Virus record (IMG/VR): IMGVR_UViG_3300025598_000023
Location: 1-64,000 of that record
Length of the DNA stretch: 64,000 nucleotides
Origin: a virus
Strand: one strand, 5' to 3'
The position numbers and the translations under genes were made by a program. The stretch's first letter is position 1. Every line of letters begins with the position of its first letter. The notes beneath the pieces are model-generated. The model had not been told where the DNA came from. It was given only the letters and a program-made list of their open reading frames with translations, and searched no databases. Shown here piece by piece: positions 15,784 through 51,400 of the stretch.

Positions 15784-15812
15784 ATAGTATATATGTAAAT
15801 TGCCTTTGTCAA
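15784..15812 (-). promoter_or_regulatory. Sigma-70-like promoter for the structured RNA
   Basis: TTGACA (15807-15812) and TACTAT (15784-15789) are separated by exactly 17 nt on the minus strand. The expected transcription start is near 15777. The -35 box overlaps the 3' end of the PP-loop gene. Confidence 0.7.
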
Positions 15813-16927
15813 TAACTTTTTTGAAAATCTTTAACAAAATATGCTTTGCTTATAAGTGTTGCATTTAATTCTGTGCTATTATTGATTTTTTTAATATTTT
15901 CTAGTCCATTCATATAAGTTTTGTATACTTTAATTTCATTGTTTTTTGCATAATTTAATAATTTTAAACTATCTGGACTATCAGTATTATTTGTATGTAA
16001 AAACTTTTGAGAACCAATAACGCTGCTTATATCGCTATGATATAAAGGATATCTACCCATTGCTATATTCCAAGCTGAATAATATTTTGTATATGGACCA
16101 TTTTTACTCATATCTTTGCCTTGAATTAAATGTACAAGTTCTGGTGAAAATTCAGGCAGAGTTTCAAACCATTTACATACATTCCATGCTTGTTTTATGA
16201 ATAATTCTGGTAAATCTTCACTTAAATAAAAACTTTCTTGTTTACTACCAACAATATCAGACAAGTTATCATCGAGAAAAAAACAATACCATTTATTATC
16301 ATGTAGATATACTTTTGCTTTTTCGTGACCCATTATGTCAGCACGTGTGGTATATTTGTTTAAATTTTTGATAATATTTTCATGATAATTAGTAAGGTAA
16401 TATTTGGTTGTTTTATTAAACCTTAAAGTGCTACCAATATGATATATCCAATAATCACCCATACTATCATAAAAATTTATTATATCAGAGTAATGGATTG
16501 GAATAATATTGATTTTTATATTTGGAAAATAATTTTTTTTGATGGTCTTTGCGTGTTCAACAGCAAATTTATATTCAGGATCATCATATAGTGATGTCCT
16601 GTCAATTATTACTAATTCATCTAACAATATATGATTATCTACAAAAGTTTTTAATATAGTGTGACTATCATAACCACCGCTATACCAAAGAGACACATAT
16701 GAATAACGTTCTCTTATTTGTTCACATCTTATTTTAACTAGCTCTTGCCAAGTTTGTTGCGGCTCAATGTGCCAACTTGACTTATTCCATGTATTCTCCA
16801 TCCATTTGAAGCTAATCTTGGAAACATCACCAGAACTTAATTCAATAGCGCGTATTTTACTGTAGGTTTTTTCTCCATTTACATCATAATAACTATCTTC
16901 ATGGTTATACACTTGTGTTTTATTCAT
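15809..16927 (-). CDS. PP-loop ATP pyrophosphatase (asparagine-synthase-like)
   Basis: The protein has 372 residues. 'WYSGGYDSHTIL' (residues 81-92) carries the SGGxDS PP-loop that binds ATP in adenylating N-type ATP pyrophosphatases (asparagine synthetase, tRNA thiolation and amidotransferase enzymes). The surrounding order, a helix ending 'RYSYVSL' then the loop, fits a Rossmann-like HUP domain. No N-terminal glutaminase Cys2 domain is present, so it should use ammonia or another nucleophile. The substrate is unknown. It is the last gene of a six-gene minus-strand operon, 1 nt after a 2OG oxygenase, so it may act on the same product as the oxygenases. It could ligate or activate a carboxylate or a base. 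Confidence 0.72.
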   Translation of the reverse strand: MNKTQVYNHEDSYYDVNGEKTYSKIRAIELSSGDVSKISFKWMENTWNKSSWHIEPQQTWQELVKIRCEQIRERYSYVSLWYSGGYDSHTILKTFVDNHILLDELVIIDRTSLYDDPEYKFAVEHAKTIKKNYFPNIKINIIPIHYSDIINFYDSMGDYWIYHIGSTLRFNKTTKYYLTNYHENIIKNLNKYTTRADIMGHEKAKVYLHDNKWYCFFLDDNLSDIVGSKQESFYLSEDLPELFIKQAWNVCKWFETLPEFSPELVHLIQGKDMSKNGPYTKYYSAWNIAMGRYPLYHSDISSVIGSQKFLHTNNTDSPDSLKLLNYAKNNEIKVYKTYMNGLENIKKINNSTELNATLISKAYFVKDFQKSY

Positions 16928-16928
16928 T

Positions 16929-17513
16929 TTAATCCAAAGTTAAACCTTCAATACTATCTAATCCAATTTGGATACTAATTCTTTTCTTAGGTATATTTCG
17001 CACACCATGTAATATTGCTGAATTAAGAACACACCACTTGCGTAATGGAATTTTTACGCTACAAATTTCTGTAAGAACATCGTGGTTAAAAACTCTATGA
17101 CCTTTGTGTCTTACAATTGGATAACCTTTTTCTTGATAAAACATTGTTTCGTGGTCATCACCACCACTTTCTAATAGGTAAAGTAGTGTATACAAACGTG
17201 ATGAATCGCAGTGTGCTCCTTTAAAATCACGCACATCTTGCTCACTTGTTTCGCTTTCTGCAACCCTAACATTGACTACACTTTTATCAGTTATGTTTTT
17301 GTATACCCATTCTTTGATCTCTTCATCAAGATGATATGATGTAAAAGCAGTATTTTTTAGTTGAATACCATTAATCGTGATGATTTCTTGGTTAATTTTC
17401 TCCCAATCAATTGTAGTATCAATGTTTCTTTTAATACTTTTATATGCTCGTTCTATAAAATCTTCTGGAACATCTGGTAAATTTTTTGGAAACTTATAAA
17501 ACCATTCATTCAT
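16929..17513 (-). CDS. Fe(II)/2-oxoglutarate-dependent oxygenase, paralogue 1
   Basis: The 194-residue protein has a double-stranded beta-helix signature. The iron ligands are His101-x-Asp103 ('GAHCDSS') and His169 ('SAILHGV'), with Arg178 placed to bind 2-oxoglutarate. The N-terminal 'W-x-Y-K-F-P...LPDVPEDF' segment is shared with two paralogues in this island (17506-18108 and 20697-21278). It is smaller than TauD-type enzymes (~280) and closer to compact 2OG-FeII oxygenases seen in T4-like cyanophages. It overlaps the upstream paralogue by 8 nt, so the two are translationally coupled. The substrate is unknown; small molecule, protein or nucleic acid are all possible. Confidence 0.78.
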   Translation of the reverse strand: MNEWFYKFPKNLPDVPEDFIERAYKSIKRNIDTTIDWEKINQEIITINGIQLKNTAFTSYHLDEEIKEWVYKNITDKSVVNVRVAESETSEQDVRDFKGAHCDSSRLYTLLYLLESGGDDHETMFYQEKGYPIVRHKGHRVFNHDVLTEICSVKIPLRKWCVLNSAILHGVRNIPKKRISIQIGLDSIEGLTLD

Positions 17514-18108
17514 TTTTAAACTCCTTGATATCTTTAACGCTTACAAAACCAACCTGTAATGCAATCCGTGGTTCTGGAATATTAATTACGCTGTGCAAAA
17601 TGCGTGAATTTAATATAATCCACTTTTTAAGAGGAATTTGTATTCTGCCTAGTTCTTCCAACTTATCGGTTTCTAATGCTGTTACACAATTTTCTCTTAT
17701 GATTGGTTTATTTTTTTCTTTATAAAAAACAGTGGCATGATCTGGTCCGCCGCTTTCAAGCAACCAAATTAATACATAATTGCGAGTAGTATCAGTGTGT
17801 GGACCACGCCAATCACGTGGATCATCGGGATTAAAATATGTCTTTGATGATTTTACATTAGCTATTCCTGTTTTAGCAACATTGTCATATACCCATTTTT
17901 TCATTTCTTTTTCGGTTTCATATTGGAAAAAAGCAACTGATTTTTTCAATTCACCGTTTTTAATAAAAGGTGCTTGTAACGTTGCATTAAAATCAACATA
18001 TTCAATAACTTCTTTATTAACACTATCATAAATCATTTTTTCTAATTCATCAGGCAAATCTGGTAAATCTGGAAATTTCCATAGCCATTCTTCTATTTGA
18101 TCACTCAT
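17506..18108 (-). CDS. Fe(II)/2-oxoglutarate-dependent oxygenase, paralogue 2
   Basis: The 200-residue protein has His104-x-Asp106 ('GPHTDTT') and His172 ('SRILHSV') as iron ligands and Arg181 as the probable 2-oxoglutarate ligand. The N-terminus 'EWLWKFPDLPDLPDEL' matches the signature of its paralogues. The 'LLESGGPDHATVFYKEKN' centre aligns with paralogue 1. It follows the ABC permease gene by 9 nt with an AGGAG ribosome-binding site. This places an oxygenase directly after the SBP-ATPase-permease genes, the same functional order as tauABCD. The paralogy and coupling to 16929-17513 suggest two related or sequential oxidations, or a heteromer. All ligands are intact, so it is probably active. 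Confidence 0.78.
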   Translation of the reverse strand: MSDQIEEWLWKFPDLPDLPDELEKMIYDSVNKEVIEYVDFNATLQAPFIKNGELKKSVAFFQYETEKEMKKWVYDNVAKTGIANVKSSKTYFNPDDPRDWRGPHTDTTRNYVLIWLLESGGPDHATVFYKEKNKPIIRENCVTALETDKLEELGRIQIPLKKWIILNSRILHSVINIPEPRIALQVGFVSVKDIKEFKNE

Positions 18109-18117
18109 TGTATTCTC

Positions 18118-18876
18118 CTACCATTTTAATTTTTGTGACACTTTGTCGAATAATTTTGATATTACATAACCATTAATTGCAATAATACATACTATAACAT
18201 ACATTTTATCAATATCCATAGTAGATTTTACATCTATCATGTATGTTCCTAAACCATGATATCCACCAATGTTACCAAATACTACTTCAAGGGAAATCAG
18301 TGTTCGCCACATATATGCCCAACTTGTGCTACAAAGTGAAATGATAATTGGTGCAGTGGCTGGCAAATATACATGAATAAAACTTTGTTTTATACCCCAA
18401 TTTAAATTCTGCACATGCTTTTCCCATGTCAGCTTTATTGTGTCAAAAGCAGATAATATCTGGTAACAAGTTGCAAAATATACACTAAAAACAACTACTA
18501 CAATTACAACATTGCTTGATAATCCAAAAATTAAAACTAAAAAAGGGATTAGGACAAAACTTGGTAGCGGAGTAAAATATCCACAATAACATTCTATTAT
18601 TTTGCGAAAAAATGGAAATATCCAACATAAACATATTGTTATAGCAATACTAATACATAAAATTGCCCACGCAGTAAACAACATTATGATAGTGTCGAAA
18701 TAAGTTATCCATAGCAATTTTGTTTGTAGCATATTAATTGCAGTTGTTGTTATTGTAATAATACTTGGAAAAACTAATGTTTCATTAATGGCAAAACAAA
18801 TGCACTGCCAAGCAACTATTAATAAACCAATGGCTATAATATTAATGATGTAGTTTTTTGATAAAATCTTTTTCAT
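18118..18876 (-). CDS. ABC importer permease (NitT/TauA/SsuC-type)
   Basis: This 252-residue inner-membrane protein has about six hydrophobic segments spread through its length. The 'LNWGIKQSFIHVYLPATAPIII' stretch near residue 160 is the EAA-type cytoplasmic loop that docks on the ATPase. The 'PLPSFVLIPFLVLIFG' segment is typical of the SsuC/TauC/ThiX permease family. It overlaps the ATPase gene by 35 nt and is followed 9 nt later by an oxygenase. With the neighbouring ATPase and binding protein it would form a complete importer. Complete ABC import systems are very unusual in phages. The substrate is not readable, but the family imports sulfonates, nitrate or thiamine precursors. Confidence 0.85.
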   Translation of the reverse strand: MKKILSKNYIINIIAIGLLIVAWQCICFAINETLVFPSIITITTTAINMLQTKLLWITYFDTIIMLFTAWAILCISIAITICLCWIFPFFRKIIECYCGYFTPLPSFVLIPFLVLIFGLSSNVVIVVVVFSVYFATCYQILSAFDTIKLTWEKHVQNLNWGIKQSFIHVYLPATAPIIISLCSTSWAYMWRTLISLEVVFGNIGGYHGLGTYMIDVKSTMDIDKMYVIVCIIAINGYVISKLFDKVSQKLKW

Positions 18877-19462
18877 CTATATCTTTTGGTAATTTCGTTA
18901 ATCCATTGTATGAAAGTAATAGTATTTCATCTGCGATTTGCTTTGCTTCGTGTATATTGTGTGTAATATATAAAACATTTAAGTTAAGTTGTATAATCTT
19001 TTCCTTAAAGTCACTTAATACATTATAACTGGTCATTGCATCAAGACCGCTAAGCGGTTCGTCACATAATATAGTTTCTGCACCACTGCATATTGCTCGT
19101 ATCAAAGTAAATCTTTGACGTTGACCACCACTTATACTATTTGGTTTTTTATCAATTAAATCTGTTAATTTCCATTCAGAAGCTATATCATACCAATTAT
19201 TTTTGCATGTAATTTCCATATTTTTCTTTACACTATACCATGGAAATAATTGATGACTATCTTGAAATACAGTAAAAATATTATTGCTTTTGATATAACC
19301 AGTATATTGCATCACACCACGAATAGCATTAATTATACTGGTTTTACCCACACCACTACTACCCATAATAACTGTAATAGTTTGCGGCTTTAATTCAATA
19401 CTGATGGGAGAAAATAAACTTCTCCCATCAACACTGATTGTAAGGTTTTTAACAGCGAGCAT
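18842..19462 (-). CDS. ABC importer ATPase
   Basis: The 206-residue nucleotide-binding protein has all motifs intact: Walker A GSSGVGKT (34-41), a Q-loop Gln near 67 ('VFQDSH'), the signature SISGGQRQR (109-117), Walker B ETILCDEP (129-136), a D-loop ('SGLDAM') and H-loop His168 ('ITHN'). It is shorter than bacterial SsuB/TauB (~250), with a minimal C-terminus. It should power the permease encoded at 18118-18876. Its start overlaps the stop of the binding-protein gene by 1 nt (TAATG), so translation is coupled. Conservation of every catalytic motif argues for selection on function, not for decay. Confidence 0.9.
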   Translation of the reverse strand: MLAVKNLTISVDGRSLFSPISIELKPQTITVIMGSSGVGKTSIINAIRGVMQYTGYIKSNNIFTVFQDSHQLFPWYSVKKNMEITCKNNWYDIASEWKLTDLIDKKPNSISGGQRQRFTLIRAICSGAETILCDEPLSGLDAMTSYNVLSDFKEKIIQLNLNVLYITHNIHEAKQIADEILLLSYNGLTKLPKDIDEKDFIKKLHH

Positions 19463-20469
19463 TAATTAATTTTTACCAATTTAGTATCAAACACTTTTTG
19501 AGAATCAGGCATCTTGTCAGGATCAACTTTAAGTGTTCCGCTCGTATACATTAATCTAAGTGTAGAAAGAGCAGCTTTTAAACTTGTATCGTAGGTGTCA
19601 TTATTCTCTTTCTTCATTTTCAGCACATCTTCTGGTGTAATATCTTCTACTTTGTCATTATTCAAGTATACTTTAATAGCAGATACAGGGTCTTTAGTAT
19701 ACTCTTTGATTGCCTCACTTTGTGCTTCAATCCATGCACGTGCTAATTCTGGATTTTCTTTTGCCCACTTTGCTGTAGTATAGCTTATGTTTGCAAAACC
19801 AAAACTTTTTACGTTGTCAGGTTTAGATACGATATGCGCTTTTTTCATAGCAACAATAGTATTTTGAAGCGGTGAACCAAGAAAAGCACAAGCTAATTTT
19901 GGCGTATCTGCTGTCATAAGTTGAAATGCTTCTTCTCTTGTTAGAATAACAAGGTTGTTATTGAGTTTTTCGGTTTGATTAGCACCGACCTCTGCTGCCA
20001 AATACTGTCGTAACATAAGTTGTTCACCAGCATTTAACGATTTTACCATAATTTTATCGTTTGGTCCTATGTCAGTAATCTTTTTAATATTAGGATCAGC
20101 ACATACTAACCAAAAATCAAATGTCTCCCATCCAGAAAGCAATACTAACTTGCTTGGGTCTTTTTCTAAAATAGGTGAATAACCGTTAATACCACCAATA
20201 ACAATATCAAGACGCCCTAATAATAAACTATCATTGGCTGTTGAAGCATTGGTAACTTCATCTAAAACTACTTTTAAATCTTTAATTCCGTGCTTGGCAG
20301 CAAATTTTGGAAGAAGTTCAACAGTTTTATAAAGTAGCGGTTGAATAGTAGCAAGTTTACTTGTTTTGCTTATATGAATTTCTGTAGCAAAAACTCCGCA
20401 TGTGGTTGCAATTAATGTAAAAATTGTCAATAATGCAATTTTAGTATTAGAAATAAACCTGTTAATCAT
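19462..20469 (-). CDS. Periplasmic substrate-binding protein of ABC importer (NMT1/SsuA/TauA-like)
   Basis: The protein has 335 residues from the ATG at 20469, which has AAGGAG 7 nt upstream; the frame extends further to 20514 but that part lies in the leader hairpin. Residues ~1-28 are a Sec signal peptide with a likely cut after 'GVFA'. The mature part has the two-lobed NMT1-like pattern: 'LLGRLDIVIGGINGYSPIL', 'LVLLSGWETFDFWLVCADP', 'DKIMVKSLNAGEQLMLRQYLAAEVG', and a C-terminal 'WAKENPELARAWIEAQSEAIKEY'. This family delivers sulfonates, nitrate, thiamine precursors and similar small molecules. It is the first gene of the operon and follows a structured leader with a terminator. The ligand is unknown. 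Confidence 0.87.
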   Translation of the reverse strand: MINRFISNTKIALLTIFTLIATTCGVFATEIHISKTSKLATIQPLLYKTVELLPKFAAKHGIKDLKVVLDEVTNASTANDSLLLGRLDIVIGGINGYSPILEKDPSKLVLLSGWETFDFWLVCADPNIKKITDIGPNDKIMVKSLNAGEQLMLRQYLAAEVGANQTEKLNNNLVILTREEAFQLMTADTPKLACAFLGSPLQNTIVAMKKAHIVSKPDNVKSFGFANISYTTAKWAKENPELARAWIEAQSEAIKEYTKDPVSAIKVYLNNDKVEDITPEDVLKMKKENNDTYDTSLKAALSTLRLMYTSGTLKVDPDKMPDSQKVFDTKLVKIN

Positions 20470-20502
20470 ATTTTTCTCCTTTCTTACGTTAACAGATAAC
20501 AC

Positions 20503-20527
20503 AAAAAACATCAATATAAATTGATGT
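20503..20527 (-). terminator. Intrinsic terminator between leader RNA and importer operon
   Basis: On the minus strand ACATCAA (20527-20521) and TTGATGT (20514-20508) form a 7-bp stem with a 6-nt loop, followed directly by a run of six T. It lies 34 nt before the substrate-binding protein start, so read-through would be needed to express the operon from the upstream promoter. Confidence 0.75.
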
Positions 20528-20673
20528 CACAATGTTAAATTTTAATATGAAAGGAGTTTGCAGTTAGTGGGTTGACTGCTACGGTCGGCGTTTAGTAAGG
20601 CTATACTTACTTTACAAGGCTTGCGCCTTTTGCGTCGATGTGGGTTCCGAGGTCACTGGTGTGGCCTTACTCC
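20528..20673 (-). ncRNA. Structured leader RNA of the importer operon (riboswitch or attenuator candidate)
   Basis: About 145 nt between a TATAAATA promoter and an intrinsic terminator fold well on the minus strand. AGTAAGGC (20671-20664) pairs with GCCTTACT (20601-20594). AAGGC-GCAA-GCCTT (20629-20616) is a hairpin with a GNRA loop. GCAGT/ACTGC (20579-20560) forms another hairpin. GGAGT (20673-20669) can pair with ACTCC (20557-20553) in an alternative that competes with the first stem. This arrangement with a downstream terminator is typical of a riboswitch or attenuator, or of a small free RNA. No known class was recognised. Confidence 0.6.
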
Positions 20674-20678
20674 AAAAT

Positions 20679-20686
20679 TATTTATA
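20679..20686 (-). promoter_or_regulatory. T4-type late promoter for the leader RNA and importer operon
   Basis: A full TATAAATA match on the minus strand. Transcription would start about 6-10 nt further on, at the 5' edge of the structured leader. This implies gp55-dependent late expression of the operon, unless other promoters exist. Confidence 0.6.
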
Positions 20687-20696
20687 ATTAAATTTC

Positions 20697-21278
20697 TTAC
20701 TCTATAAATTTACCACGCAATTCAAAAATTTCATCTAACCCAATTTGAAATCCAATTCTATTTTCAGTGAGTAAATCTACGCCGTGTATAATTCTACTAT
20801 TGAGAATACACCAAGTATTTAATGGAATATGAACACGGTCTATTTCTGTTAAAAGATTATAATCGTGAACTCTTGCTTTTTTTTCTCTAATAATTGGGTA
20901 ATTTTTTTCTTGATACCAAACTGTATATGGTTTTTCACCGCCAAGCCTAAGCAAATAAATTAAAACATAATCACGTGTTTTATCTGTATGTGCACCCTTG
21001 TGTTCCCCATCAGTAGTTTTTGTAATACTAACTGCATTGCATCCAGATACAACAATATTTTCATAAAACCAATTTTTAATATTTTCTGTTAATTTATACT
21101 GAACAAACGAAACATTTTGTTTTGATTTATTATCTACTACATCAATTTCGCTGGCTGTTTTCGGCCACCACCAACGGTCTTCACGTATATTATTAGCTGA
21201 TATTAATTTTAAACTTTCAGTAATAATTTCTTGTGGAACTTGTGGTAAATCAACAAACTTATAACACCATTGCTGCAT
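20697..21278 (-). CDS. Fe(II)/2-oxoglutarate-dependent oxygenase, paralogue 3
   Basis: The 193-residue protein has His97-x-Asp99 ('GAHTDKT') and His165 ('SRIIHGV') as iron ligands, and Arg174 for 2-oxoglutarate. The N-terminus 'WCYKFVDLPQVPQEI' and the 'TVWYQEKNYPIIREK' centre align with the two paralogues in the operon downstream. It is separated from them by the ABC genes and leader RNA and is instead paired with an SDR gene 11 nt upstream. The triplet suggests duplication within the phage lineage. The substrate is unknown. Confidence 0.78.
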   Translation of the reverse strand: MQQWCYKFVDLPQVPQEIITESLKLISANNIREDRWWWPKTASEIDVVDNKSKQNVSFVQYKLTENIKNWFYENIVVSGCNAVSITKTTDGEHKGAHTDKTRDYVLIYLLRLGGEKPYTVWYQEKNYPIIREKKARVHDYNLLTEIDRVHIPLNTWCILNSRIIHGVDLLTENRIGFQIGLDEIFELRGKFIE

Positions 21279-21289
21279 TTAATAATCCC

Positions 21290-21931
21290 TTATATTGGTT
21301 TTGTTGAAATTACAATTTCTTGAGTGTAATGTTCATCATCAAACAATGCAAGTGGTATACGTTCTTGAATATCGGTCATTGATAAGTGTAAGTCGCTATA
21401 ATACTTATTATCAATTTCTTGAGTCCAAGATTCAAGAAGTCTATTTTTAAGTAAGTTTGTTTTAGCTTTGCCTATGCGTATTAATAAAACGCCATGTTGT
21501 GGGTCTTGTATTTCATGTCTTAGTGCATTTATATAAGCACGTTGTGCAAATCTAGTTAATCCATATGCTAGTCGATTAGGCAGTATATGATCACCATTAT
21601 GTGCACTACCAATAAAGATAACTTTACTCCACTTTTCTGCACGTTGTTTCAAATAACTGTGCGTAAATTTAATTTGTCCAATTAAATTAGTATACAAAAT
21701 AGTTTCAATATCATCCCATTTTTGTTCAAGATGTGGTCTGTCACCATGTGGATCAACCCCACAACTCAACACCAAATAATCATATTGACTTAAATCTGTA
21801 TTATAATCAGCAGTTCTTATATCAAATTCTTTTCTCCCAACTGCAGTTACTTCTATATCAATATTATTCATCAATTCTGCAATGGCAGCACCAACGCCTG
21901 TTGTTCCACCAATAATTAAAGCCTTACGCAC
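21290..21931 (-). CDS. Short-chain dehydrogenase/reductase-like protein
   Basis: The 213-residue Rossmann protein begins with a GTG at 21931 that has a GAGGA ribosome-binding site and overlaps the nuclease gene by 8 nt. 'IIGGTTGVGAAIAEL' (residues 6-20) is the cofactor-binding glycine motif, and 'DYLVLSCGVDPHG' corresponds to the NAG-type strand. Ser109 ('FIGSAHNG') and Tyr123 ('LAYGLTR') fit the catalytic Ser and Tyr. The Lys normally found four residues after Tyr is Arg127 here, so activity may be altered. It precedes 2OG oxygenase 3 and may act with it on the same metabolite. Classical SDRs are slightly longer (~250). Confidence 0.78.
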   Translation of the reverse strand: MRKALIIGGTTGVGAAIAELMNNIDIEVTAVGRKEFDIRTADYNTDLSQYDYLVLSCGVDPHGDRPHLEQKWDDIETILYTNLIGQIKFTHSYLKQRAEKWSKVIFIGSAHNGDHILPNRLAYGLTRFAQRAYINALRHEIQDPQHGVLLIRIGKAKTNLLKNRLLESWTQEIDNKYYSDLHLSMTDIQERIPLALFDDEHYTQEIVISTKPI

Positions 21932-25275: not shown

Positions 25276-26225
25276 TAACTTTTAATTCCACAGTGTTTGG
25301 CACAAACCCGTAACTTTGGTTCTTTTTCTATAGTATTATAAAAACTATCAAAATATTGCAAAATTTCACTTAATGTATGGTGTTGCAAACTATTATTTGT
25401 ATAGTCATTTTGCAAGATTTGTTTCTTCCATATAGATAAATCAAAATAATTTTTTGTTTTTGCAGCAAATACTCCAGTCATACAACATGGAAAAACTTCA
25501 CCGTCCCAATTTATAAAAATTTCTTTTTTTTCTAAACTCTGACATATAACACTTTTATTAACTATATTTTTTATTATATGATTTCTTTCAGTATCTTTTG
25601 TTATACTTTTATCACTGTTATAATTTCGTGTAAATTCATTTTCAACTGTTCTATCGCTATAGATAGTAAAAAAACGTTTAAACCCAAGTTTTTGTGATAA
25701 ATTTCTTGCTTGTTCTATTTGGTGTTCATTGTGTTTAAAAATAATATATTGCCAACGAGCATTGCCGCCATTTTCTATAAAAATTTTAGCATTATTAATA
25801 ATCTTATTAAAATCTGTATTAACTCTATATATCGAATGAGTATCTTCTAAACCATCAATAGCAAATGTAACTTTAGAACCCGTTGGCAAATTAAGTGCTA
25901 ACCATTTCCAAAAATTTTTATTGCGTAAGCTACCGTTTGTATGAATTGAAATTTTAGCAGATGCGCAATTTTCTTTTATCCATTCTATAATATCTATAAA
26001 ATGTTTAGATATGAGCGGATCACTAAAAGTGCCTTTAAAAATTATATGTTTTAAATTACTGTAAATTTCTTGTGGTAACCACGTTTGTAAGTTATCTACA
26101 GTAATTTCTCTTTTATGATTTAATTCGGATAAAAAATCTGAGTTTGTTCGTGGACATTGTGGACAAGCTGCATTACATCGACTTGTTAATTCCAATTCAA
26201 TTGATTCAATGTCACTAACATTCAT
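25272..26225 (-). CDS. Radical SAM/SPASM-like protein
   Basis: The 317-residue protein has a radical SAM cluster motif Cys17-x3-Cys21-x2-Cys24 ('CNAACPQC') at the N-terminus. A TIM-barrel pattern follows ('HIIFKGTFSDPL', 'KISIHTNGS', 'VTFAIDG'). The C-terminal part has 'INWDGEVFPCC' and a final 'CAKHCG', resembling the auxiliary cluster region of SPASM/twitch proteins that modify peptides or proteins. It overlaps gp55 by 4 nt and precedes gp47 by 31 nt. The target is not evident; no small Cys-rich precursor peptide was found beside it. Metal-cofactor or RNA modification are alternatives. Confidence 0.82.
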   Translation of the reverse strand: MNVSDIESIELELTSRCNAACPQCPRTNSDFLSELNHKREITVDNLQTWLPQEIYSNLKHIIFKGTFSDPLISKHFIDIIEWIKENCASAKISIHTNGSLRNKNFWKWLALNLPTGSKVTFAIDGLEDTHSIYRVNTDFNKIINNAKIFIENGGNARWQYIIFKHNEHQIEQARNLSQKLGFKRFFTIYSDRTVENEFTRNYNSDKSITKDTERNHIIKNIVNKSVICQSLEKKEIFINWDGEVFPCCMTGVFAAKTKNYFDLSIWKKQILQNDYTNNSLQHHTLSEILQYFDSFYNTIEKEPKLRVCAKHCGIKSY

Positions 26226-27052
26226 TCATTAAAACCAAAATCACCGCCGCCGCCACCTCTTATGGCATTGTCTGTTTGGCGGGTATAACTTGGGTTGAGT
26301 CCATTGGCTTCAAGGATATCGTCACGAAGGTGTTGGTTCCGCTTCTCAACGTTAAGAACTCTAGTAAAACTATTGGTGATAGTAGCAGTATAATAAGCAA
26401 AAGGATTATTAGATTTGCTTTCATCAAATTGTAGCCCTACCTGTGATAACTGTAGCAATGCCTGAGAACGCATCTCATCATTGTATGTATAACCACGCCA
26501 GTTACCTTTTGAACCATAACGTTCACATAGTTTCATAAACATACGAGCAAGATTAGGTGTCATCTTGCCATGGTCACGATTAAACCAACCATTTTCAATA
26601 CCGCCTTCCCAATGGCTCTTGGCTACACACATTAATTCATCATTTTCATTGAATCTAAAATGTTGAAATGGTGGAAAGTTTACTTTTACATGATGGTCGG
26701 CAGTTGTTTTAAGACTTTTCTTACGACCTGGTGCTAACGGAATGTGATCCCATGTTGTGATTCTAAAAACCAAATCGGTTTTTGAAATACTGTGCCAATC
26801 TACTGCATGTTGGTCTAATTTTGTTTTTACGCCGCTTGATTGTGCAGCCTCCCATGCTTGTTTAGCTAATCTATCAGCACGTGCACGTTTTGCTTCTGCA
26901 ATTGTTTTTTGATTAATTTTACTAACACTAGGCAATATTAAATCATAAACTTGATCTTCTGGCGTTAGGAATGTGCAAAATGTATTTTTACTTTTTGCTA
27001 TCTCTTTTAATAAATCTTTGTTGGTTAAGTATGGTGTGCGTTTTGTTGTCAT
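26222..27052 (-). CDS. 55: Late transcription sigma factor (gp55-like)
   Basis: The 276-residue protein directs host RNA polymerase to late promoters. The C-terminal third ('GNWRGYTYNDEMRSQALLQLSQVGLQFD', then 'NPFAYYTATITNSFTRVLNVEKRNQHLRDDIL') matches the gp55 and sigma region-2-like core. T4 gp55 has 185 residues, so the ~120-residue N-terminal part is extra; it includes 'HVKVNFPPFQHFRFNENDELMCVA'. The C-terminus is a Gly-rich tail ending in an acidic/aromatic peptide, which may serve as the sliding-clamp-binding tail. A -10 TATAAT lies 7 nt before the ATG, and a palindromic TAAATATTTA lies further upstream. Many TAAATA motifs in the window are its likely targets. Confidence 0.88.
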   Translation of the reverse strand: MTTKRTPYLTNKDLLKEIAKSKNTFCTFLTPEDQVYDLILPSVSKINQKTIAEAKRARADRLAKQAWEAAQSSGVKTKLDQHAVDWHSISKTDLVFRITTWDHIPLAPGRKKSLKTTADHHVKVNFPPFQHFRFNENDELMCVAKSHWEGGIENGWFNRDHGKMTPNLARMFMKLCERYGSKGNWRGYTYNDEMRSQALLQLSQVGLQFDESKSNNPFAYYTATITNSFTRVLNVEKRNQHLRDDILEANGLNPSYTRQTDNAIRGGGGGDFGFNE

Positions 27053-39455: not shown

Positions 39456-42400
39456 ATGGCAAAACGTAAAAGTGAAAACTTTTTACCACAAGTTTTTAGA
39501 ACTTTAGGAAATAAGCGTTTCTTAAATGCCACAATGGACCCACTTATTCAGGAACCAAGCCTGAAAAAGATGTATGGTTATATTGGTCAACAAGACCAAA
39601 GTCCTGTGTATAGTACAAGTGATTATTATATAAACGAGAATGACAGCTATAGTCAATTCTACCAACTTGAACCAGGCGTAGTAATTAAGAAACGTCAGTT
39701 AGGCACAAACACATACAAAGTTAGTAATGTTTATAACTATGTGGATTTATTAAATCAAATTTCTGCTGATGGTGGTCTTAATAATAATCATGACCGTCTT
39801 TTTACAAATCGTTATTATAGTTATAACGGATTTGTAGACCTTGATAAACTTACAAACTATCGTCAATATTATTGGGTGCCTGGCGGTCCTATGCCTGTTG
39901 ATGTTACTGCTGATTTAACACCAACACAAAAAGATTTTTATTTTCATCGTGTAAGTTATGTTGCTAACAATCAAACTGAATTACAAAGTGCTGCACTTGG
40001 TGAAACTGGTTATAGTGTTGATGGATACAACAATGTTGTTAATCCAACTATCACTCTGGTTCGTGGTGGCAGTTATAATTTTTATGTAAATCAAACAACA
40101 CAATTTTGGATTCAAACAGAAATTGAAACAAGTGGTACAAGCACTGTCCAAAGTAATATTTCTACTCGTGATGTTCTTGGTGTATCAAATAATGGAACTG
40201 AAAGTGGTATTGTTACTTTTACTGTTCCACTAAGCACTGCACAGGATTATCTAATAAATTATCCTACTTTGGGACAAACTGTAGATATTATCGTTGATGA
40301 TATTACTTACGAAGAGCTACAAGGCGTTAACTATGATAACTTTGTTTTACAATACAGTTTAGATGGTGTGCGTAGTTTTGATGGCAAATATGTAGTCTTG
40401 ACAAGTAATACAGGCTGGGCGGATGTTGACTCTAGCCAATGGCACGGTGTTTGGCGCATTAATGTCGATCCAGTAACACGATTAATGAATTTAACTTACA
40501 TTGCTGCTTGGGATAACCTTTATAAAGTATTTGTGAATCAAGGTGATGTGTATGGTCACGTTTATGCTTATAAAAACAACGTTGGTGTAGTCACTAAGTT
40601 TCCAACTCTTAGCGCAGCACAAAATGTGCTTTATTATGTTGATGCAGAAAATCAACTAGTTTATGGAACTATACGTTTAGTTGACCCTACACCAAATAGT
40701 TTGCTTAATGTAAATGACATTATAGGTAAAACAAATTACACAAGCCCAAATGGTGTGCAATTTACAACAGGACTAAAAGTTAAATTTACTGGTCTTGTTG
40801 TGCCAAGTGAGTATCAAGGCAATGAATATATTGTAGAAGGTGTTGGCAGTAGTATTAAACTTGTCAAATACAGTGATTTGGTAACACCAGAAACTATTAA
40901 TACTAATTTGGGAAGTAGTTTTGGTAATAGTCGAGGTTTTGATGCTGATGGCACTGGATTTGATGGAACCACTAATAGTCCAGAAATTAAAGATTATATC
41001 ACAATTAATCGTGCAAGCGTAGACGGAAATAGTTGGAGTCGCAACAATCGTTGGTTCCATCGTGATGTGCTACAAGCAGCAGCAAATTACAACAACACAA
41101 ACTATGCATTTGATAGCAATCAACAAGCAAAGCGTCCAATTGTAGAATTTTTACCAAACCTTAAACTTTATAATTATGGTCAAAATTATCGTGGTTATAT
41201 TACTTGTTTTGATAATGTAACAACAAGTGCCTTTTCGCAAATTGAAGGTGTCAATAGTTATGCTGTGCCTAAAGGCACATATGATAGTAAAAACAATAGA
41301 TTCGTTTATAACAGTGATGGTATACAACTATTAAATGGTGTAACAGTTGTTTTTATTAATGATATTGATCCAACTGTTCGTGCTACTCTATATCAAGTTC
41401 AAAATAACAAAACTCGCACTGCTGCAACATATAATCCTATTACTATAGGTTATTCAGGTGCAGATTCAACTCAACTTTTTATTAATGAATTAGGCAATAT
41501 TACTTTGGGTCAACATGTTACTGGCACTGGTATTGCTCAAAATACTACTGTTTTAAATGTTGATACCGTTAATAATGTTGTTACAATCAGTAATCCTATC
41601 ACAAGCGAAATACCAATTGGTCAAACAATTTATTTTGATAATAGTTTTGACCAAATTCATCTGGTTCCAATTAAAACATTTAGCGATGGTGATACTGTTG
41701 TTGCTATGGAAGGTGTTAATAATCAAGGCAATATGTATTATTACGCAAATGGCACTTGGACACTTGCACAAATTCGCAATAGTCGTCCACAGGCTCCGCT
41801 ATTTGATATCGTGGATGCAAACAGTATAAGTTTAAGTGACCAAACAGCTTATCCAAGCAGTAATTTTACTGGTAGCCAATTATTTGGATATGCAGTCAAT
41901 TTAACTCCAAATGCAAAACGTGATAGTGAATTGGGTTTTGCTCTTGTTTATAAAAGTATAGGTAATTTGGGAGATATTGTATTCCAAAATTACTATGCAA
42001 CCGACACATTTGATTATAATTTAAATCAAATTGACACTGTAAAAAATGTAAACACAGGCTATGCTGCTGTAATTAATAGTTATAATAATTATAGTTTTGC
42101 TAATGGTTGGTTCCGTGTTAGCGATAAAACAAAACAATACATCACCAAAACTTATAATGCTACAGTTATACAACTTAATAATTTTGATTTGGGTGTTGTT
42201 TATAACAATAGCTACTATGAAAACAATATCTTTGTTTATGTTAATGGTGTTTTGCAATCACGTGACAAATATACGCTACAAACAAGTTCTATAACAAGTG
42301 TTGTTAAATTTACAAATGATGTAGTGATAGGTGATCGCATATTTGTTAAAATATATGGCACAAGTGCACAGTATAAGCAAACTTACACTATGCCTCGCAA

Positions 42401-45400
42401 TTTAACTAACAACAGTGAAAATTCAGAATTTACAACAATTACACTAGGCCAGGTTCGCAATCATTTGATTGAAGTTGGTAATAATCTACTTAATTTAGTG
42501 GGTGAACCAGCAGGCGCTAATAATTTCCGTGATTTGAATTTTAACTATGTTGGTGGAAAATTACTACAACATAGCTCAAGTTTGCGACCAGCGGCATTGC
42601 TGTTTGCAAATAGTGATGTTGATCCTGTTCAAATTATACGCTTCGCAGCAGATAGCTATACAAATTTTAAAAATCAGTTGCTTGATTACATAAACAATCG
42701 TGAATTTGCTGATCCAACTAACTATGCAGCTTGCTTAGATTCCGTTCTCAAAGAGTTTGTAAATTTAAGCATTATCAGTTCACCTTTTTATTATACCGAT
42801 ATGGCTGCAAGTGGAAATGATTATTTAAAAAACACATACACCGTTAACAATACAACATATCGCAGTTATAATTTAACCCAAGATTTTAGTGATAATAACA
42901 AAGGTTATCGTTCACTATTAGTATACTTAAATGGTGTTCTGTTATTGAAAAACATTGATTATGTAATTAACTCAAAAGTAATTACTATCAATGATAGCGT
43001 CACTATTTCACGCAATGATGTTATTGAAGTTGTAGAGTATAGCAGCACTGCAGGTTGTAATATACCAGCTACACCAACAAAATTAGGCATTTATCCTAAA
43101 TTTACTCCACAGATTACTGTAGATGATAGCTATGTTGTGCCTACTACTGTTATCATTGGACATGATGGCAGTATTACCACTGCTTATGGTGACTACCGTG
43201 ATAATATTTTATTAGAATTTGAAAAACGTGTATACAACAATATCACAGTCACCTATGCCAATAATACTGATTACGATTTGCCAAGTGTTGTGCCTGGTGC
43301 TTTTCGCAAAACTGATTATAGCCTTACTGAATGGACACAATTACTTACACCTGCATATTTGCGTTGGAGCACTATCAACAATGTAAATGTATTTGATAAT
43401 ACAACTACTACTGGAAATGAGTTTACTTGGAATTACAGTAGTGGTGTAGATAAGTTGTTTTACAATCCAGTGCCAGGTTACTGGCGTGGAATTTATAGCT
43501 ATTTTTATGATACTGATAGACCACATACACATCCATGGGAAATGTTGGGTTTTGCAGAAAAACCAACTTGGTGGGAATTGCGTTATGGACCAGCACCATA
43601 TAGTAGTGCTAACAATGTTTTATGGACTGATCTTGAATTAGGTTTTGTATATGGCGGAAATCCAAATTTAAGTTATATTAACAGTCGTTACAGCCGTCCT
43701 GGTCTAAGTCAAATTATTCCAGTAGATGAACATGGTAATCTTGTGCCGCCAAACTTAAGTGTCATTACAAATTATGATGTTGCTACAGCAAGTCAAAATT
43801 GGCAAGTAGGTGACCAAAGCCCACAAGAAACTGCTTGGCGTCGTAGTGTAGATTTTCCATTTGCTGTCATGATTGCATGGTGTTTAGCAAGACCAGCAGA
43901 ATGGTGTGCGTTAAAATATAATACTCGTGATTTGACATATGTTGCAGCACTAAATCAAATAATCAATACAAAGACAAATAATCGCACATTTGATTTTACT
44001 GCTACAAGTGCAAATGATTATATACCAGGTTACAATGTATGGTTGCGTGATTATCTTACAAGCAATAACCTTGATATAATTGAAAACTGGAATAATGTCG
44101 TTAACAACAGCACATTCAATCTTGTTTACAAGATGGGTGCTTATACTGATAAAAGTTATCTAACAGTTGTTGCAGATCAAGTTAGTCCACAAAGCACAAA
44201 TAGTAGTGTTATTATTCCACAAGAAAATTACCAAGTTAAAGTTACTAAAAGTGCGCCTGTAGCACGTGCAGTATATAGTGCGGTTGTTGTTCAAAAAGTA
44301 ACTAATGGTTTCCAAATTACTGGATTTGACAAAGAACGTCCTTACTTCTTGACAATACCAAGTCGTGTCAGCAGTAACAATTATGGAATTGCAGTTGGAA
44401 ATCAAACAGCCATTATCTATCTTGATGCAGCAGAAGGTATTGTTACATATCCTTATGGCACTATCTTTAATACTACACAACAAGTAGTAGACTTCTTAAT
44501 AAGTTATGGTCGTTATCTTGAATCACAAGGATTTAGTTTTAATGAATTTTTAAGTGATAATTCAACTAAAAGCGATTGGACACTTGCTGCAAAAGAATTT
44601 TTATTCTGGGAACAACAAGATTGGGGTGATAGCACAGTTATAAGTTTAACCCCAACTGGCACCAGTGTTAATTTTAATAGTCTGTTTGGTATCGTTGACA
44701 CTATCACTAACACAAACAATTACACTAAAATTATCAATAGTGATAATGTCACGCTTACTGGTCGTGATTATCGTGTGTATCGTGATGACAACAACTTTAG
44801 TGTAACGCTGAAAAATGCGCAAAAAGGTATACACTTACTGGATATTGCTATTGTTCAGTATGAGCATACACTTATTTTTGATAATAACACTGTGTTTAAT
44901 GATATTCTTTATGATGAACAAACAGGCAGTCGTCAATTCCGACTGCGTATTGATGGCAGCAAAACACAAGATTGGAATGGTTCACTTTATGCGCCTGGTT
45001 TCTTTGTTAATGTAAGCGATATACCACAATGGGCTGCTTATACTGATTATTACACAGGCGATATTGTTCTATTCAAAGACAAGTATTATGCAGCACAAAA
45101 GTTTATACCAGGCACACAAAAGTTTGCAACCAGTGACTGGTATCTCATTAACGGCGATTTACTGTCTAAAAACCTAATTCCAAATATGGCAAGTGGTGCT
45201 GCACAGTTTATTAATTTCCATGATCCTGATGCAACTGACTTAAACAGTGCAGCAGATGCACTAAGCAAGAGTGAAACTGGATTTAGTCCACGCCAATACT
45301 TCACAGATTTGGGATTAGATAATACAAGCCAATATAAATTTTATCTTGGTATGATAGCTCAAAAAGGAACACAAGCTGTTCTTAATGCTTATCTACGCAA

Positions 45401-48400
45401 TTATCAAAAGCGTATTGATAGTAACATTAAAGTTAATGAACAGTGGGCTATTAAACTTGACAATTATGGTGGCACAAACGATAATGATAAATTAGAATTT
45501 AATATTGGTAATGCAACAAGTATCAATAACCAATACTTGTTCCAATTTATTAATGACACAGATGTTAGAAGTGTTGAATATAATAGTGTAAAACCAAGCG
45601 ATTTGTTATACAAGCCTCGCAGCTATACTACTGAAATCTTTGCACTTACTGAGCCACGCAAGCAAATTATACCTACTGCTGGTCCAGTCAATACAAGTGA
45701 TGTATCTGCCACAGTTTTTGATATTAGCAAGATTTACAATATATCAGCACTAAGTTCAATTCTTGGCGAAGGCAGTAAAATATGGATTGCTGCCGATACT
45801 AGCAATCAATGGGGCGTTTATCGCTTAAGTTCTACTGCTCCGCTTACTGTAGTTTCAGTTACCCAAGTAAGTCCAACAGAATTACAATTTACTACTAATG
45901 TTGCGCATAATCTATCACAATTTGATTATATTATGCTTAAAAATGGCAAAGTTCTTGGAACTGTAAGCAGTGCAACTGTTGTAGATTTAAGTGGATTTTA
46001 CAAAGTAAGCAGCGCAACCAATAACACATTCAACGTTAAAATCATGAATAATATAAGCATTGGCACTGGCTCTTTAGCAGCGACTATGCTTAAGTTAATT
46101 AATGTTCGTTATTCTACAGGCAATGACTTTGCAAACTTTATTCCAGTTCGTGGTTGGAATAGTGGCGAAATTGTTTATATTGATAACGGACCAAATGGCT
46201 ATAATGTTCTACAGAATACAAACAATTGGGCATATGCACAAACTAAAAGCCCAACATACACTGTTCCAAGTGACAACTATGGCAGTAGTGTAAAAATTAA
46301 TCATAGCCAAGGTTTTGCAATAGTTGGTGCGCCAAATAAAAATACAAGTGGCAGTGCTTTCATCTATGGCAAGCGTCAAGACAATACTTGGCAAGAAATT
46401 GGTATTCTAACTCCTGATAGTCGTGTCCGTGGTTTTGGTAGTAACGTTGATATTAATACTAACGATATAGCGTTTTTAAGTGCACCAACCACAAATAAAG
46501 GTGTAGTTTATACTGCTAATGTAAGCAGCCAGCAAATACAATTAACACAAGCTATTCACTATGATAATCTATATGTCATAAGTGCTGGTATTTCTCAAAG
46601 TAATGCATATTTGTTAATAAGCAATGTTAATGTTTTTGATGCTACCGCTAACATTGCTGTTCAAGCAAATTATAGCTTGGCTAATTTTGCTAATGGTATG
46701 GCAGTTGCCGTGCCTGGTGCAAACTCAACTATACAAATTGCAAATATTAGCTATGGATATCCATATCATAAGATTGGTTTAACTGCAAACTTAGCAACTC
46801 TTGGTCTTACTATCAGCGGTTCAACTAAGGTTGCAATTTACTCTAATGTAACACCACAAAGTCAGTTCGGATATAGCATTAGCGCAAGTGGCGATGGTAA
46901 TTGGTTGTATGTTGGCGAACCAACTACAAATAGTGTGTATGTTTACAAATATAATACTGTAGCACCCGTTACTTCATTGCGTCAAGGTGACGGTGTATCA
47001 ACCAGTTTCTCATATCCAAGTGGTGCTACTGGCAGTGAAAATGATGTTAAAGTATATGTTGATGGTGCGCTTAAGATTCCTTATCTTGATTATATTAAAA
47101 CACCAGGTCAAAATGCAATCACATTTGATGTAGCACCAACTGGTGGTTATGTAGCAAACGTGCTTACAACAAGTGGCGGTGTTGGCTATTATTATGGCAA
47201 TACAAGTGTTACGTTTAGTCCACCTTTAAGTGGTGTGACTGCTACAGGTAATGTTTGGATTTACCCAAACACAGCAATTGGTGGTGTGATTATCACAAAT
47301 CCTGGTAAAGGATATGGTTCTTTAGCACCTACTGCAACTATTAGTAGCACAAGTGGCAGCGGTGCTATTCTTACACCTGTACTCTACAATGCAAACATTG
47401 CAATTGTTTATGAAAGCCATTGGACAGAGACAAATAGAATTGTCACTGATGACCCACAAGTCGGTGGTTTTGGAACAAGTGTAAGCACAAACTATGATGG
47501 CAGTGTTGTTGTAATTGGTGCAGCTAATAGCAGTGCAACATTTAGTTCAACATATAACAATGCAGGTAAAACTTATATCTATGACCGCACTGCGGAAGTA
47601 TTTGTTGCTGATGGTGCTACAACCACATTCCAATTAAGCAATGCATTAGCTAATTTAACAACTATTACTACACCTACTCTTACTACAAATCCAACTATAT
47701 TTGTAGATGGTGTAATTGCACAACCCACAGTCAATTATAGCACAAATTCAATTACTTTTGGTAATGCGCCTGCACGTGGTAGCACTATCACTGTTCAGAC
47801 AAACCAATTCATTAATACTAAAATTGGCACAACTGATGTTGGACAACAAAATAGCAATTATGGAACTGCTGTTAAAATTAGTAGCGATGGTAGCAGTGTG
47901 TTCTCATCAGCTACTGGTTATGGTTTAAGTTCAAGTCAGAATGGTGTTGTTTTCTATCTGCTTAACATACCACAAAAGTATGGCACTGCAATAGGTAGTA
48001 AATCAAACTTTACAATGACAGCTAACAATGCTGTGCGTATAAATGACCAATTAGTTACATTTACTGGTGGTAGTGTAACACAAACTGTCAATGATATCAA
48101 TGCGGCAAATATTCCACATGTTACTGCTTCTGTATTGTCTAACAATGCAATCTCAATCACTACAACTGATGTTAACAGTGCAGCAAAATTGCGTCTGCGC
48201 AATGAAGTAGGTGATCCATTAAACACTATGGGTATTGTTCAATGGCACACAATTCAACGTTTGAACAACCCTATTGCACAAGACACAGCACACTTTGGTG
48301 AAATCTTAAGTTTAAGTCCAGATGGCAATAGTTTGGTTGTTGGCAGCACATTAAGTAACACCAAAGCAAAAACAACATTTGATAACAATACTACAACATT

Positions 48401-51400
48401 TGATATCAATAATATCAAATTTATTGATACAGTGTATCGCAGTGGTGCTGCACACATCTATGAATACCAAACACTAAGTGATGAAAACTATTCAAGCTAT
48501 GGAAGTTATGCATATGGAACATTAATTAATGACCAATTTGCAAACAGCTTTGACCGTTATTCAACTGGTGTTGATATTAGCGATAACTTTATTTTAGTTG
48601 GTGCTCCACAAGCAAAAATACTTGGAAACCAAACAGGCGCACTATATGTCTATTACAATCCTAATGCTCAACCAATTTGGCAAAGCATACGCAGCGGTGG
48701 TGTAGATTATGATAGTCGTAAGATTGACCGTGCTTACATTTATAATAGCACAACTGCAAAACTTATTGCAGATTTGCCAGTTTATGATTTAACAAATGGC
48801 TATTTGCCAAATGAAAGTGAGACATATCTTGATTTTGTTATCAACTATGATCCAGCAGTTTATAACAAGGTTCCAACTACAATTAGCTTTAACTATGATC
48901 GTAAAAATGCTTGGGGCAAAGAAAAAGTTGGAAAACTTTGGTGGGATATTAATAGTATAAAATACTATGACAACACACAAGGCTCTACACTTGATAGATT
49001 TAACTATTGGGGATTAGCTTTTCCAGCAAGCACAGTTAATGTGTATGAATGGATTGAAAGTAGTGTTCCGCCAAGTCAATATGTTGGCTCAAGTGCAAAC
49101 AATACTCCACTTTACACTATTAATGAAGTGTATAGTTCACATGTAGAGATTGATAGTGCAACTGGTTTGGCTGTTACAAAGTATTACTTCTGGGTAAAAA
49201 ATAGCACACTAAGTTCTGGTTCACGACCAAGTGCATTGGAAATTCAAGGTCAAATCAGCCTACCTCGTGCAAGCAGTGAACCATTTGCAGCAGTAATATC
49301 ACCAAATGCAATTGCACTATTCAATGCTAAAAATCTAATCAGCATTGATACCAATATGGTTATTGAATATAAAGATGTTCTGAAACCACAGCTAACTCAT
49401 GCCGAATGGACTATGTTTGATGATGGCACAGATTTAGGTGTGGCATATGAGTTCTTGAATAAACTTAATGATAGTCTAACTGGTCAAGATAGTAGCGGTA
49501 GAATTGTTCCTGATCCAAAACTTCCTATTGGTCAACGTTATGGCATGGATGTAAAACTACGTCAAAGTTTATTCAAAGATCAATATACTGGACGCAAGCT
49601 GTTTGTTGAAAATGTAAATCAAGTTTGCACAACATATCCAATGGTTCTTACTCGTGGAGCAGCAATTGCAGCATTGGACAGTTATGATCCAATTCCAGAT
49701 TCAACTCATTATAAAACTGTAGTAGCTAATATTACTGAATTGGGTTATCTTGATACCAATACATATCTTGCTGGTGACCAAGTTCTTGTTTTAAGCGATA
49801 GCAACAGCTATAATAACGGTTGGAGTTTATATAGACTAAATGTTGTATTCCCTAATACTAGAACATGGGAAATTATACAAGTTCAAACTTATAACTTAAA
49901 CAATTATTGGAGTTATGCTGATTGGTATAGCAATCAATATAATCCACAAGCACAACCAAAATATACTGTTACAACAGAAAATGATATTAGCAATTTACAA
50001 CTTAATGTTGGTGATATCATTTATGTTACTAACAGTTCTAATGGAGGTTGGAAACTTGTTCTTGTGACAATTAATAGTCTAGAACTATTAGCTCAGCAAA
50101 ATGCTACAATACAATTTAATACTAATTTGTATGATCTAGTTGCTGCAAACCAAGGATTCCAAACAAGTAGTTTCCAAAGTGTTGGATTTGATAGCGATAG
50201 CAATTTAGAATTTAATAAAATATTCAATATTATTCGTGATGAATTATTAATCAATGAATATCGCAGCAACTTTAAAGATTTAGTAAAACTCATGATTGAT
50301 ACGATTGCTACACAGCATCAGCAAACAGATTGGTTAATGAAGACCAGTCTAGTTGATTTGTATCATCGTGTTCGTGGTTTGGATCAATTACCAGTTTACC
50401 TTCCACAGCCAGAAACTACTGTCACAAGTTTCTTTAGTGAAGTAAAACCATATCACACTAAGCTAAAACAATATATTGCAACATATGATAATACTGATTC
50501 TATTGATGTTGCATACAACAATGTAACTGATTTTGATTTACAACCATATAAAAACAGTGTTGTAAACAAATATCGCAGTCCACAATTAGGCAATAGCTTG
50601 GATACTAACGCTTTAGAAACACAAAGTGTTTATCAACCATGGCTAAACAACCATTCTTATGGCGTTAAACGTGTTGATACAGTCACTGGCGGAGTTGGTT
50701 ATGATGCAAATACCACAGTAACTATTGTTGGTGATGGCACTGGTGCAACAGCACAAGCGTATGTTGTCAATGGCAGTGTTTACACAATTACTGTTACTAA
50801 TAGCGGTGTAGGCTACACTTATGCAAAAGCATATATTTTTGGTGTTGGAACTGGTGCAACAGCTACTGTGATTCTTGGCAATGGATTGGCTCGTACAACA
50901 AACACAATTATTAAGTATGACCGATATACATATTTTAATAATATTCAAGATTGGGCTGCTAATACTTCCTATACTGTAAACACGGTAGTAGTGTATAATG
51001 CTCAACCATACCGTGTTATTACTGCTCATACAAGCGGAACTACATTTGATTCAACTAAGTTTGTGCAACTTGTAGTAAAAGTTTGGTATCCAGAAACACA
51101 ATATGCACTCAATGATGTAGTCATTTATAAAAATACAAGTTATACAGTCAATGAAACATTTACAAGTGCTCTTACATTTGATACAGCCAATTTGACAGCG
51201 TATAACGGTCTATGGCTTGATAATGCATGTGACCGTGTTTGGGCATACTATGCCCCAAAAAGCGGTATGGCTGGTCGCGATTTAGCGCAAGTTATGACTG
51301 GAATGGAGTATAGTGGCAATCAAATTATTGGTCCTAACTTTAATCAAACACCAGGTTATGATGTAAACAATTACGACTACATAGCTTATGATTATGAAAC

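Follow-up and report, generated by a model that had tools for sequence, protein, structure and literature searches.

Phages are usually viewed as borrowing single nutrient genes from their hosts. Riboswitches are already known from phages in the glutamine class (PMC9004378), and tctA and genes for 2-oxoglutarate (2OG) enzymes have been noted on SUP05 viral contigs, for which the part of that report consulted here states no linkage to a PP-loop gene or an RNA (PMC4164917). We analysed the first 64 kb of the 111,324-bp IMG/VR virus record IMGVR_UViG_3300025598_000023 (positions 1 to 64,000, hereafter the window). Six genes on its minus strand encode the substrate-binding protein (SBP), ATPase and permease of an ATP-binding cassette (ABC) importer, two small Fe(II)/2OG oxygenases and a PP-loop synthetase. 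In this lineage of large uncultured phages, an uptake-and-chemistry operon is maintained behind a structured RNA without counterpart in Rfam, and one importer class is replaced by another with the rest kept. We give even chances to the reading that this is a phage-borne, RNA-gated uptake-and-modification operon. For the combination of RNA, importer, 2OG enzyme and PP-loop enzyme, we found no description in the open-access literature.

An initial annotation made from the sequence alone had overlooked the leader RNA, both promoters, a third 2OG gene and an SDR gene. The leader RNA changes what the system appears to be.

Results

On aligning the regions upstream of the SBP gene, long invariant stretches were seen in the non-coding leader, and the leader RNA contains the invariant segments GACGC and ACGCC. 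In a MAFFT alignment of nine ABC-type sequences, which was not fitted to a structure model, 12 pairs show double changes (28 cells, where shuffles give 8.2). For 18 homologues, 92% of the cells are paired and 22 of the 30 pairs have changed on both sides (95 cells, where shuffles give 30.8 and reach the score in 0 of 500), in an alignment that was fitted to the structure model, which favours covariation; slid controls of this test collapse. The covariation between importer types includes the pseudoknot (G-C to A-U) and P2 (G-C to C-G). The 5' leader therefore holds what is generally expected of a riboswitch, a conserved and covarying structure. Two covariance models, R1 and R2, were made of the RNA, and in the records searched each has a single copy by the model, which always lies at this operon.

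No Rfam family exceeds its gathering score in the leader. The best same-strand match below threshold is freshwater-2 with E 4.8, located in the Shine-Dalgarno (SD) region. The riboswitches known for NMT1/THI5-type importers (xanthine, thiamine) were considered and have no Rfam match here, and a match to DUF3577 RNA in the sister phage L145 (E 0.024) is weak, lies on the opposite strand and does not recur. Most of the 76 stretches from a first RNA pattern scan are chance matches; from a later pattern scan, L099, L102, L103 and L106-L109, among others, are chance matches without a hit by the model. A Rho-independent terminator, considered for several leaders where a hairpin and a U-run follow the RNA, was rejected, as it overlaps with the sigma70-like promoter and L003, L007 and L009 do not conserve it.

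In all 12 ABC-type leaders, the 3' strand of P1 (CUCC) and the bases next to it are complementary to the SD of the SBP gene in at least 8 of 12 positions. Pairing between anti-SD and SD amounts to 88%, with 13 double-change cells against 5.6 after shuffling and a score that is reached in 0 of 500 shuffles. Compensating changes keep this complementarity and are found outside the SD core. The minimum fold is the SD-sequestered one in seven of the seven leaders computed, and the fold with P1 lies 0.3-5.8 kcal/mol higher. An expression platform that is exclusive with the aptamer stem is predicted for the ABC type only, where the arrangement suggests a switch turned ON by formation of P1.

The late promoter motif TATAAATA is depleted in the window, with 2 occurrences against 11 expected by shuffling. 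NATAAATA has seven sites in the 64 kb, five of them at the starts of gene groups. Four of these five lie 16-32 nt from the gene. Only for this operon is the distance 210 nt, and because of this the late transcript should start almost at P1. Upstream of the RNA, NATAAATA is found in 17 of 18 loci. Late expression, as initially proposed, becomes probable with the TATAAATA promoter. Between RNA and gene, 17 of 18 loci have the pattern TTGnnn-N17-TAnnnT, chosen after inspection, where shuffling predicts 0.9. We regard this sigma70-like promoter as likely rather than proven. A late promoter 5' of the RNA and a sigma70-like promoter after it would imply an early mRNA free of the RNA and a late mRNA that is gated by it. 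For L145, L149, L152, L217 and L219, the sigma70-like -10 element is located only 5-7 nt before the start codon of the PP-loop gene, so that an early PP-loop transcript would be nearly leaderless.

The operon of six genes exists as described, is intact and evolves under purifying selection. Six intact minus-strand genes, as annotated before, are confirmed by the positions of the open reading frames (ORFs), including their spacings of +1, -8, +9, -35 and -1 nt from the PP-loop side to the SBP side. The operon SBP-ATPase-permease-2OG(1-2)-PP-loop(1-2), headed by the RNA, is found in 12 distinct IMG/VR phages, the window counted, between phage resolvase and baseplate-hub genes; the contig of L002 ends within the permease. 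SBP identity of the relatives to the window is 38-58%. Gene content varies by duplication, with one or two 2OG genes and one or two PP-loop genes. The PP-loop gene is tandemly duplicated in L006 (6001-8207) and the 2OG gene in L012 (2935-4147), both within the cassette. In close pairs, importer and 2OG genes have a ratio of nonsynonymous to synonymous substitution rates (dN/dS) of about 0.04-0.10, and the PP-loop gene one of 0.23-0.43. Among 50,697 isolated-phage records, neither SBP nor PP-loop protein has a match, and the same holds for the PP-loop protein of the TctA type described below. The PP-loop protein was not found in genome contigs by a pattern scan limited to exact conserved peptides.

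The initial annotation had itself considered that the genes might lie on a mis-assembled bacterial fragment or be under no purifying selection. We attach practically no weight to a mis-assembled fragment or to decaying cargo. No point in support was found, the flanks with gp46/resolvase and baseplate hub are the same in many independent contigs, dN/dS is well below 1, and the syntenic locus of phage PA5oct is free of the cassette. Chimera and decay are rejected because scans for SBP, PP-loop, permease and RNA, in line with the suggested search in other phages, find the same cassette at the same site in many independent IMG/VR contigs, and because dN/dS is low.

Translation of the SBP starts at the ATG at 20469, the TTG at 20514 being a mechanical extension only. 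The protein carries a Sec-type signal peptide by inspection. Its AlphaFold model (predicted local distance difference test, pLDDT, 86) was compared by Foldseek, the structure search that had been proposed. TauA is the best PDB match with 15% identity, SsuA and ThiY-type SBPs are matched as well, and E goes down to 6e-13. With this SBP, an ATPase with Walker A, Walker B and signature motifs and a BPD permease in one operon, the locus encodes an ABC importer with a periplasmic SBP. Pfam, the SBP fold and the phage context agree with the earlier claim of a complete importer of this kind in a phage, adjoining 2OG oxygenases and a PP-loop enzyme. The motifs reported as intact are so: the ATPase motifs are present and the 2OG triad is invariant in 16 homologues. 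By motif, with H101, D103, H169 and R178 invariant in the 16 sequences, the oxygenases appear to belong to the Fe(II)/2OG superfamily.

For the PP-loop protein, we obtained no Pfam or NCBIfam assignment, and PDB profile searches with the 2OG and PP-loop alignments gave nothing useful. The S-x-G-x-D-S positions do not vary among 12 homologues or between importer types. Foldseek matches its AlphaFold model (pLDDT 78) to ASNS, TilS, LarE and carbapenam synthetase at E 3e-4 to 1e-3. An SGGxDS loop on the expected fold, albeit with a weak fold match, is what is found in the PP-loop ATP-pyrophosphatase superfamily. In CarA and CarC, a beta-lactam-synthetase-like PP-loop enzyme is paired with a 2OG enzyme. 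Such pairing is possible for this cassette, with nothing beyond the weak PP-loop fold match to support it.

Sister phages carry a different importer at this site. A divergent RNA, a homologous PP-loop gene and a 2OG gene are accompanied by TctA and a secreted binding protein in place of the ABC importer. Relatives with the TctA-type site came from a baseplate-hub search (L145, L148, L149, L150, L152), and an RNA pattern scan added L217 and L219. The RNA region of L145 is identical to one in the 338-kb contig L226. At the matching site, the RNA is found in six sister phages; TctA, SBP, 2OG and PP-loop genes are visible in five of the six, and the contig of L217 ends after the PP-loop gene. TctA is assigned by Pfam with E from 2e-62 (L145) to 5e-54, with 211, 186 and 184 bits against a cut-off of 28.9. 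The sister PP-loop proteins share the motif with the window protein and have 21-24% identity to it over the alignment. The ABC-only RNA model gives E 3.5e-5 for L145 and 7e-4 for L148, and only 0.14 and 0.15 for L149 and L152. Position, shared GACGC/ACGCC and covarying pseudoknots support these weaker RNAs. In L148, where the RNA sits between the PP-loop and binding-protein genes, the oxygenase, as well as the importer, appears to be exchangeable. Since the sister locus keeps RNA, PP-loop gene and 2OG gene and has a TctA-type transporter, the unit as read from the sequences is RNA, importer, oxygenase and PP-loop enzyme, with the importer class exchangeable.

The genome is that of a phage. It encodes a T4-type late sigma factor, portal, major head protein and baseplate hub, and among isolated phages, jumbo phages such as PA5oct and Atu_ph07 come closest to it (gp46 about 46-51%). 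The interval from gp46-resolvase to baseplate hub (L137-L216) is a variable cargo site that holds ABC-type or TctA-type cassettes in near relatives; more distant relatives carry radical-SAM genes or no cassette homologue there. The pair of third 2OG gene and SDR gene also occurs in L096, and the SDR gene alone in some other relatives. Many radical-SAM proteins, DegT-type aminotransferases and one epimerase are encoded in the 111-kb record (L092 84-12545 and other places), which suggests extensive small-molecule or sugar chemistry. A single ORF of 4665 amino acids at 39456-53453 of the window probably encodes a tail or host-contact protein. The coordinates of all features are collected in Table 1.

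Table 1. Features of the importer locus and its surroundings, with positions in the window unless a contig is named
Feature	Positions	Strand	Remarks
PP-loop (N-type ATP-pyrophosphatase) synthetase, AsnB/TilS/LarE-like	15809-16927	-	SGGYDS; without glutaminase domain
Small Fe(II)/2OG oxygenase, copy 1	16929-17513	-	invariant HxD...H...R; dN/dS of relatives about 0.04-0.05
Small Fe(II)/2OG oxygenase, copy 2	17506-18108	-	invariant HxD...H...R
ABC importer permease	18118-18876	-	Pfam BPD_transp_1 8.8e-14; profile matches CmpB 3e-5
ABC ATPase	18842-19462	-	Pfam ABC_tran 3.8e-20; Walker A GSSGVGKT, signature SGGQRQR, Walker B ILCDEP
Periplasmic SBP, TauA/SsuA/ThiY-type fold	19462-20469	-	predicted fold
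SD region of SBP gene, GTAAGAAAGGAG	20476-20487	-	partner of anti-SD
Sigma70-like promoter (likely), TTGATG-N17-TAACGT	20486-20514	-	TGT before -10; between RNA and gene
Anti-SD, CUCCUUUC	20545-20556	-	P1 3' strand and following bases; complementary to SD, covarying
Conserved structured leader RNA, candidate riboswitch aptamer	20553-20673	-	121 nt; P1 GGAGU/ACUCC, hairpins P2-P5, pseudoknot CGG/CCG
T4-type late promoter, TATAAATA	20679-20686	-	5 nt before RNA
Third 2OG oxygenase, paralogue	20697-21278	-	upstream of late promoter; only in some relatives
SDR-family reductase gene	21290-21931	-	just upstream of third 2OG gene
Late sigma factor	26222-27052
Oxygenase of another subfamily, contig L148	10519-11244	-	weak Asp_Arg_Hydrox match

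Discussion

Late in infection, the operon most likely serves the conditional import of a small organic anion, which the 2OG enzymes would oxidise and the PP-loop enzyme would activate with ATP or ligate. The sequence itself shows the order of the genes, their motifs, the conservation of the RNA and the replacement of the importer; substrate class, order of the chemistry, ligand sensing and timing are our inferences. Early in infection, the host-sigma70-like promoter near the gene would give a short mRNA without the RNA, and later the TATAAATA promoter would give a transcript that starts with it. Complementarity and folding suggest that, with P1 open, its 3' strand CUCCUUUC pairs with the SD of the SBP gene and blocks translation. 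Something that binds the pseudoknotted core would hold P1 closed and free the SD, making this an ON switch. Judging from the protein families, SBP, ATPase and permease, or TctC-like SBP and TctA, may import a sulfonate- or carboxylate-like small organic anion, which the 2OG enzyme would oxidise and the PP-loop enzyme would adenylate or join to an amine or macromolecule. Most simply, the RNA ligand would be the imported compound or its product.

We tentatively suggest, as a possibility below even chances, that the leader is a new, phage-exclusive riboswitch class for a ligand that is taken up or made by the cassette. These phages would then own an inducible import-oxidise-ligate pathway that leads to a dedicated small molecule or to the modification of a macromolecule. 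RNA and chemistry would be conserved in it, and the importer class would be swapped between lineages. Should the RNA prove to be a riboswitch, its class would so far be phage-only, and its ligand would directly name the imported compound. RNA, importer, 2OG and PP-loop enzyme at one fixed genome site also make a testable rule. Several observations weigh against the main reading, an RNA-gated uptake-and-modification operon. The anti-SD switch is seen only in ABC-type leaders, and TctA-type phages have a weak SD and an RNA that precedes the PP-loop gene, or the SBP gene in L148. For the TctA-type cassette of L150, no RNA is detectable. The sigma70-like promoter was first spotted by visual inspection, its single sites are not significant, and an early transcript from it would bypass the RNA. 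The TctC assignment is based on position, signal peptide and one Pfam match below threshold (L148, 0.0023), and no PDB relative was found with the TctC-like profile. Fold matches of the PP-loop enzyme are weak. In a strict test, the exact RNA core is absent from 84,980 bacterial and archaeal genomes, so that there is no host gene context to name the ligand.

The RNA could act other than as a metabolite riboswitch. It might bind a protein, as in autogenous control or with a phage regulator, protect the 5' end of the late mRNA, or shut off the early mRNA by covering its SD as a late RNA. That it lies directly at the late start site, and that the anti-SD pairs with the would-be 5' end of the sigma70 transcript, fits such roles. 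A multi-helix junction with a pseudoknot and invariant single-stranded GACGC and ACGCC is, on the other hand, typical of ligand-binding leaders, and P1 and anti-SD exclude each other in the manner of a cis-switch. We consider a role of this kind doubtful. For the proteins, the imported compound could be a building block for modification of a phage or host macromolecule (DNA base, tRNA, surface sugar, virion protein), oxidised by the 2OG enzyme and attached by the PP-loop enzyme, as TilS attaches lysine to tRNA. We hold this to be improbable: a nucleotide-binding or transferase partner was not identified and PP-loop enzymes have many roles, even though TilS with lysine and AsnB-type amide-forming enzymes are among the fold matches of the PP-loop protein, radical-SAM, DegT-type aminotransferase and epimerase genes abound in the record, and modification of virion or genome fits a late promoter.

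Also unlikely is an ordinary auxiliary metabolic operon that provides sulfur, nitrogen or carbon to the infected host by taurine/sulfonate or tricarboxylate salvage, with an RNA that only tunes late translation. All Tau/Ssu models stay well short of their cut-offs, no TauD family is matched by the oxygenases, taurine catabolism has no place for a PP-loop synthetase, and the importer class changes while PP-loop and 2OG types stay. These findings have to be set against an SBP with a fold like that of TauA and SsuA, an adjacency of importer genes and 2OG gene that recalls the tauABCD order, and the carboxylates moved by TctA-type transporters. Nutrient genes are moreover known from phages, e.g. 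pstS (PMC6359870), and tctA and 2OG-FeII oxygenase genes from SUP05 viral contigs (PMC4164917).

Comparison with known systems

The glutamine riboswitch of methylophage Melnitz and pelagiphages (PMC9004378) resembles the leader RNA in being a regulatory RNA of a T4-like phage with late promoters. It represents a known class, whereas the leader RNA matches no Rfam family and precedes an importer operon. Pseudomonas phage PA5oct (Arenbergviridae) shares the backbone order of late sigma, gp47, gp46, RusA-like resolvase, baseplate hub, structural protein and portal. In contrast to the window, its cassette site holds short hypothetical genes only, and importer, 2OG and PP-loop genes are not annotated there. 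With asparagine and carbapenam synthetase, TilS and LarE, the PP-loop protein of the window shares the SGGxDS motif and the PP-loop core. It differs from them in having no glutaminase domain, and its best Foldseek E is only 3e-4. Tripartite tricarboxylate transporters (TctA/TctC) are resembled by the TctA and secreted binding protein at the same locus in sister phages. The TctA type is absent from the window, TctB is not seen, the binding proteins stay below the TctC cut-off, and the genes are embedded with PP-loop, 2OG and RNA.

A further comparison is to tauABCD and ssuABC, in E. coli with TauA and SsuA, to which the initial annotation had likened the gene order. Order and SBP fold do resemble tauABCD, with a 2OG-type gene next to those of SBP, ATPase and permease in one operon. 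Membership did not hold, since every family cut-off is missed. TauC, SsuC and SsuA-family models overall give 20-24 bits against curated cut-offs of 163-347: the SBP reaches 23.4 bits for SsuA_fam (cut-off 163.5) and the permease 23.7 bits for TauC (cut-off 342). The ATPase scores 84.4 bits with the TauB model (cut-off 357), and none of the three 2OG proteins matches any TauD family. The window operon further differs in its oxygenases of about 195 amino acids, the added PP-loop gene, the leader RNA and an importer that is exchangeable with the TctA type. From the sequences, we conclude that the tau-like gene order is resemblance and not identity, because sister phages swap the ABC importer for TctA and keep the PP-loop enzyme, the 2OG types and the RNA.

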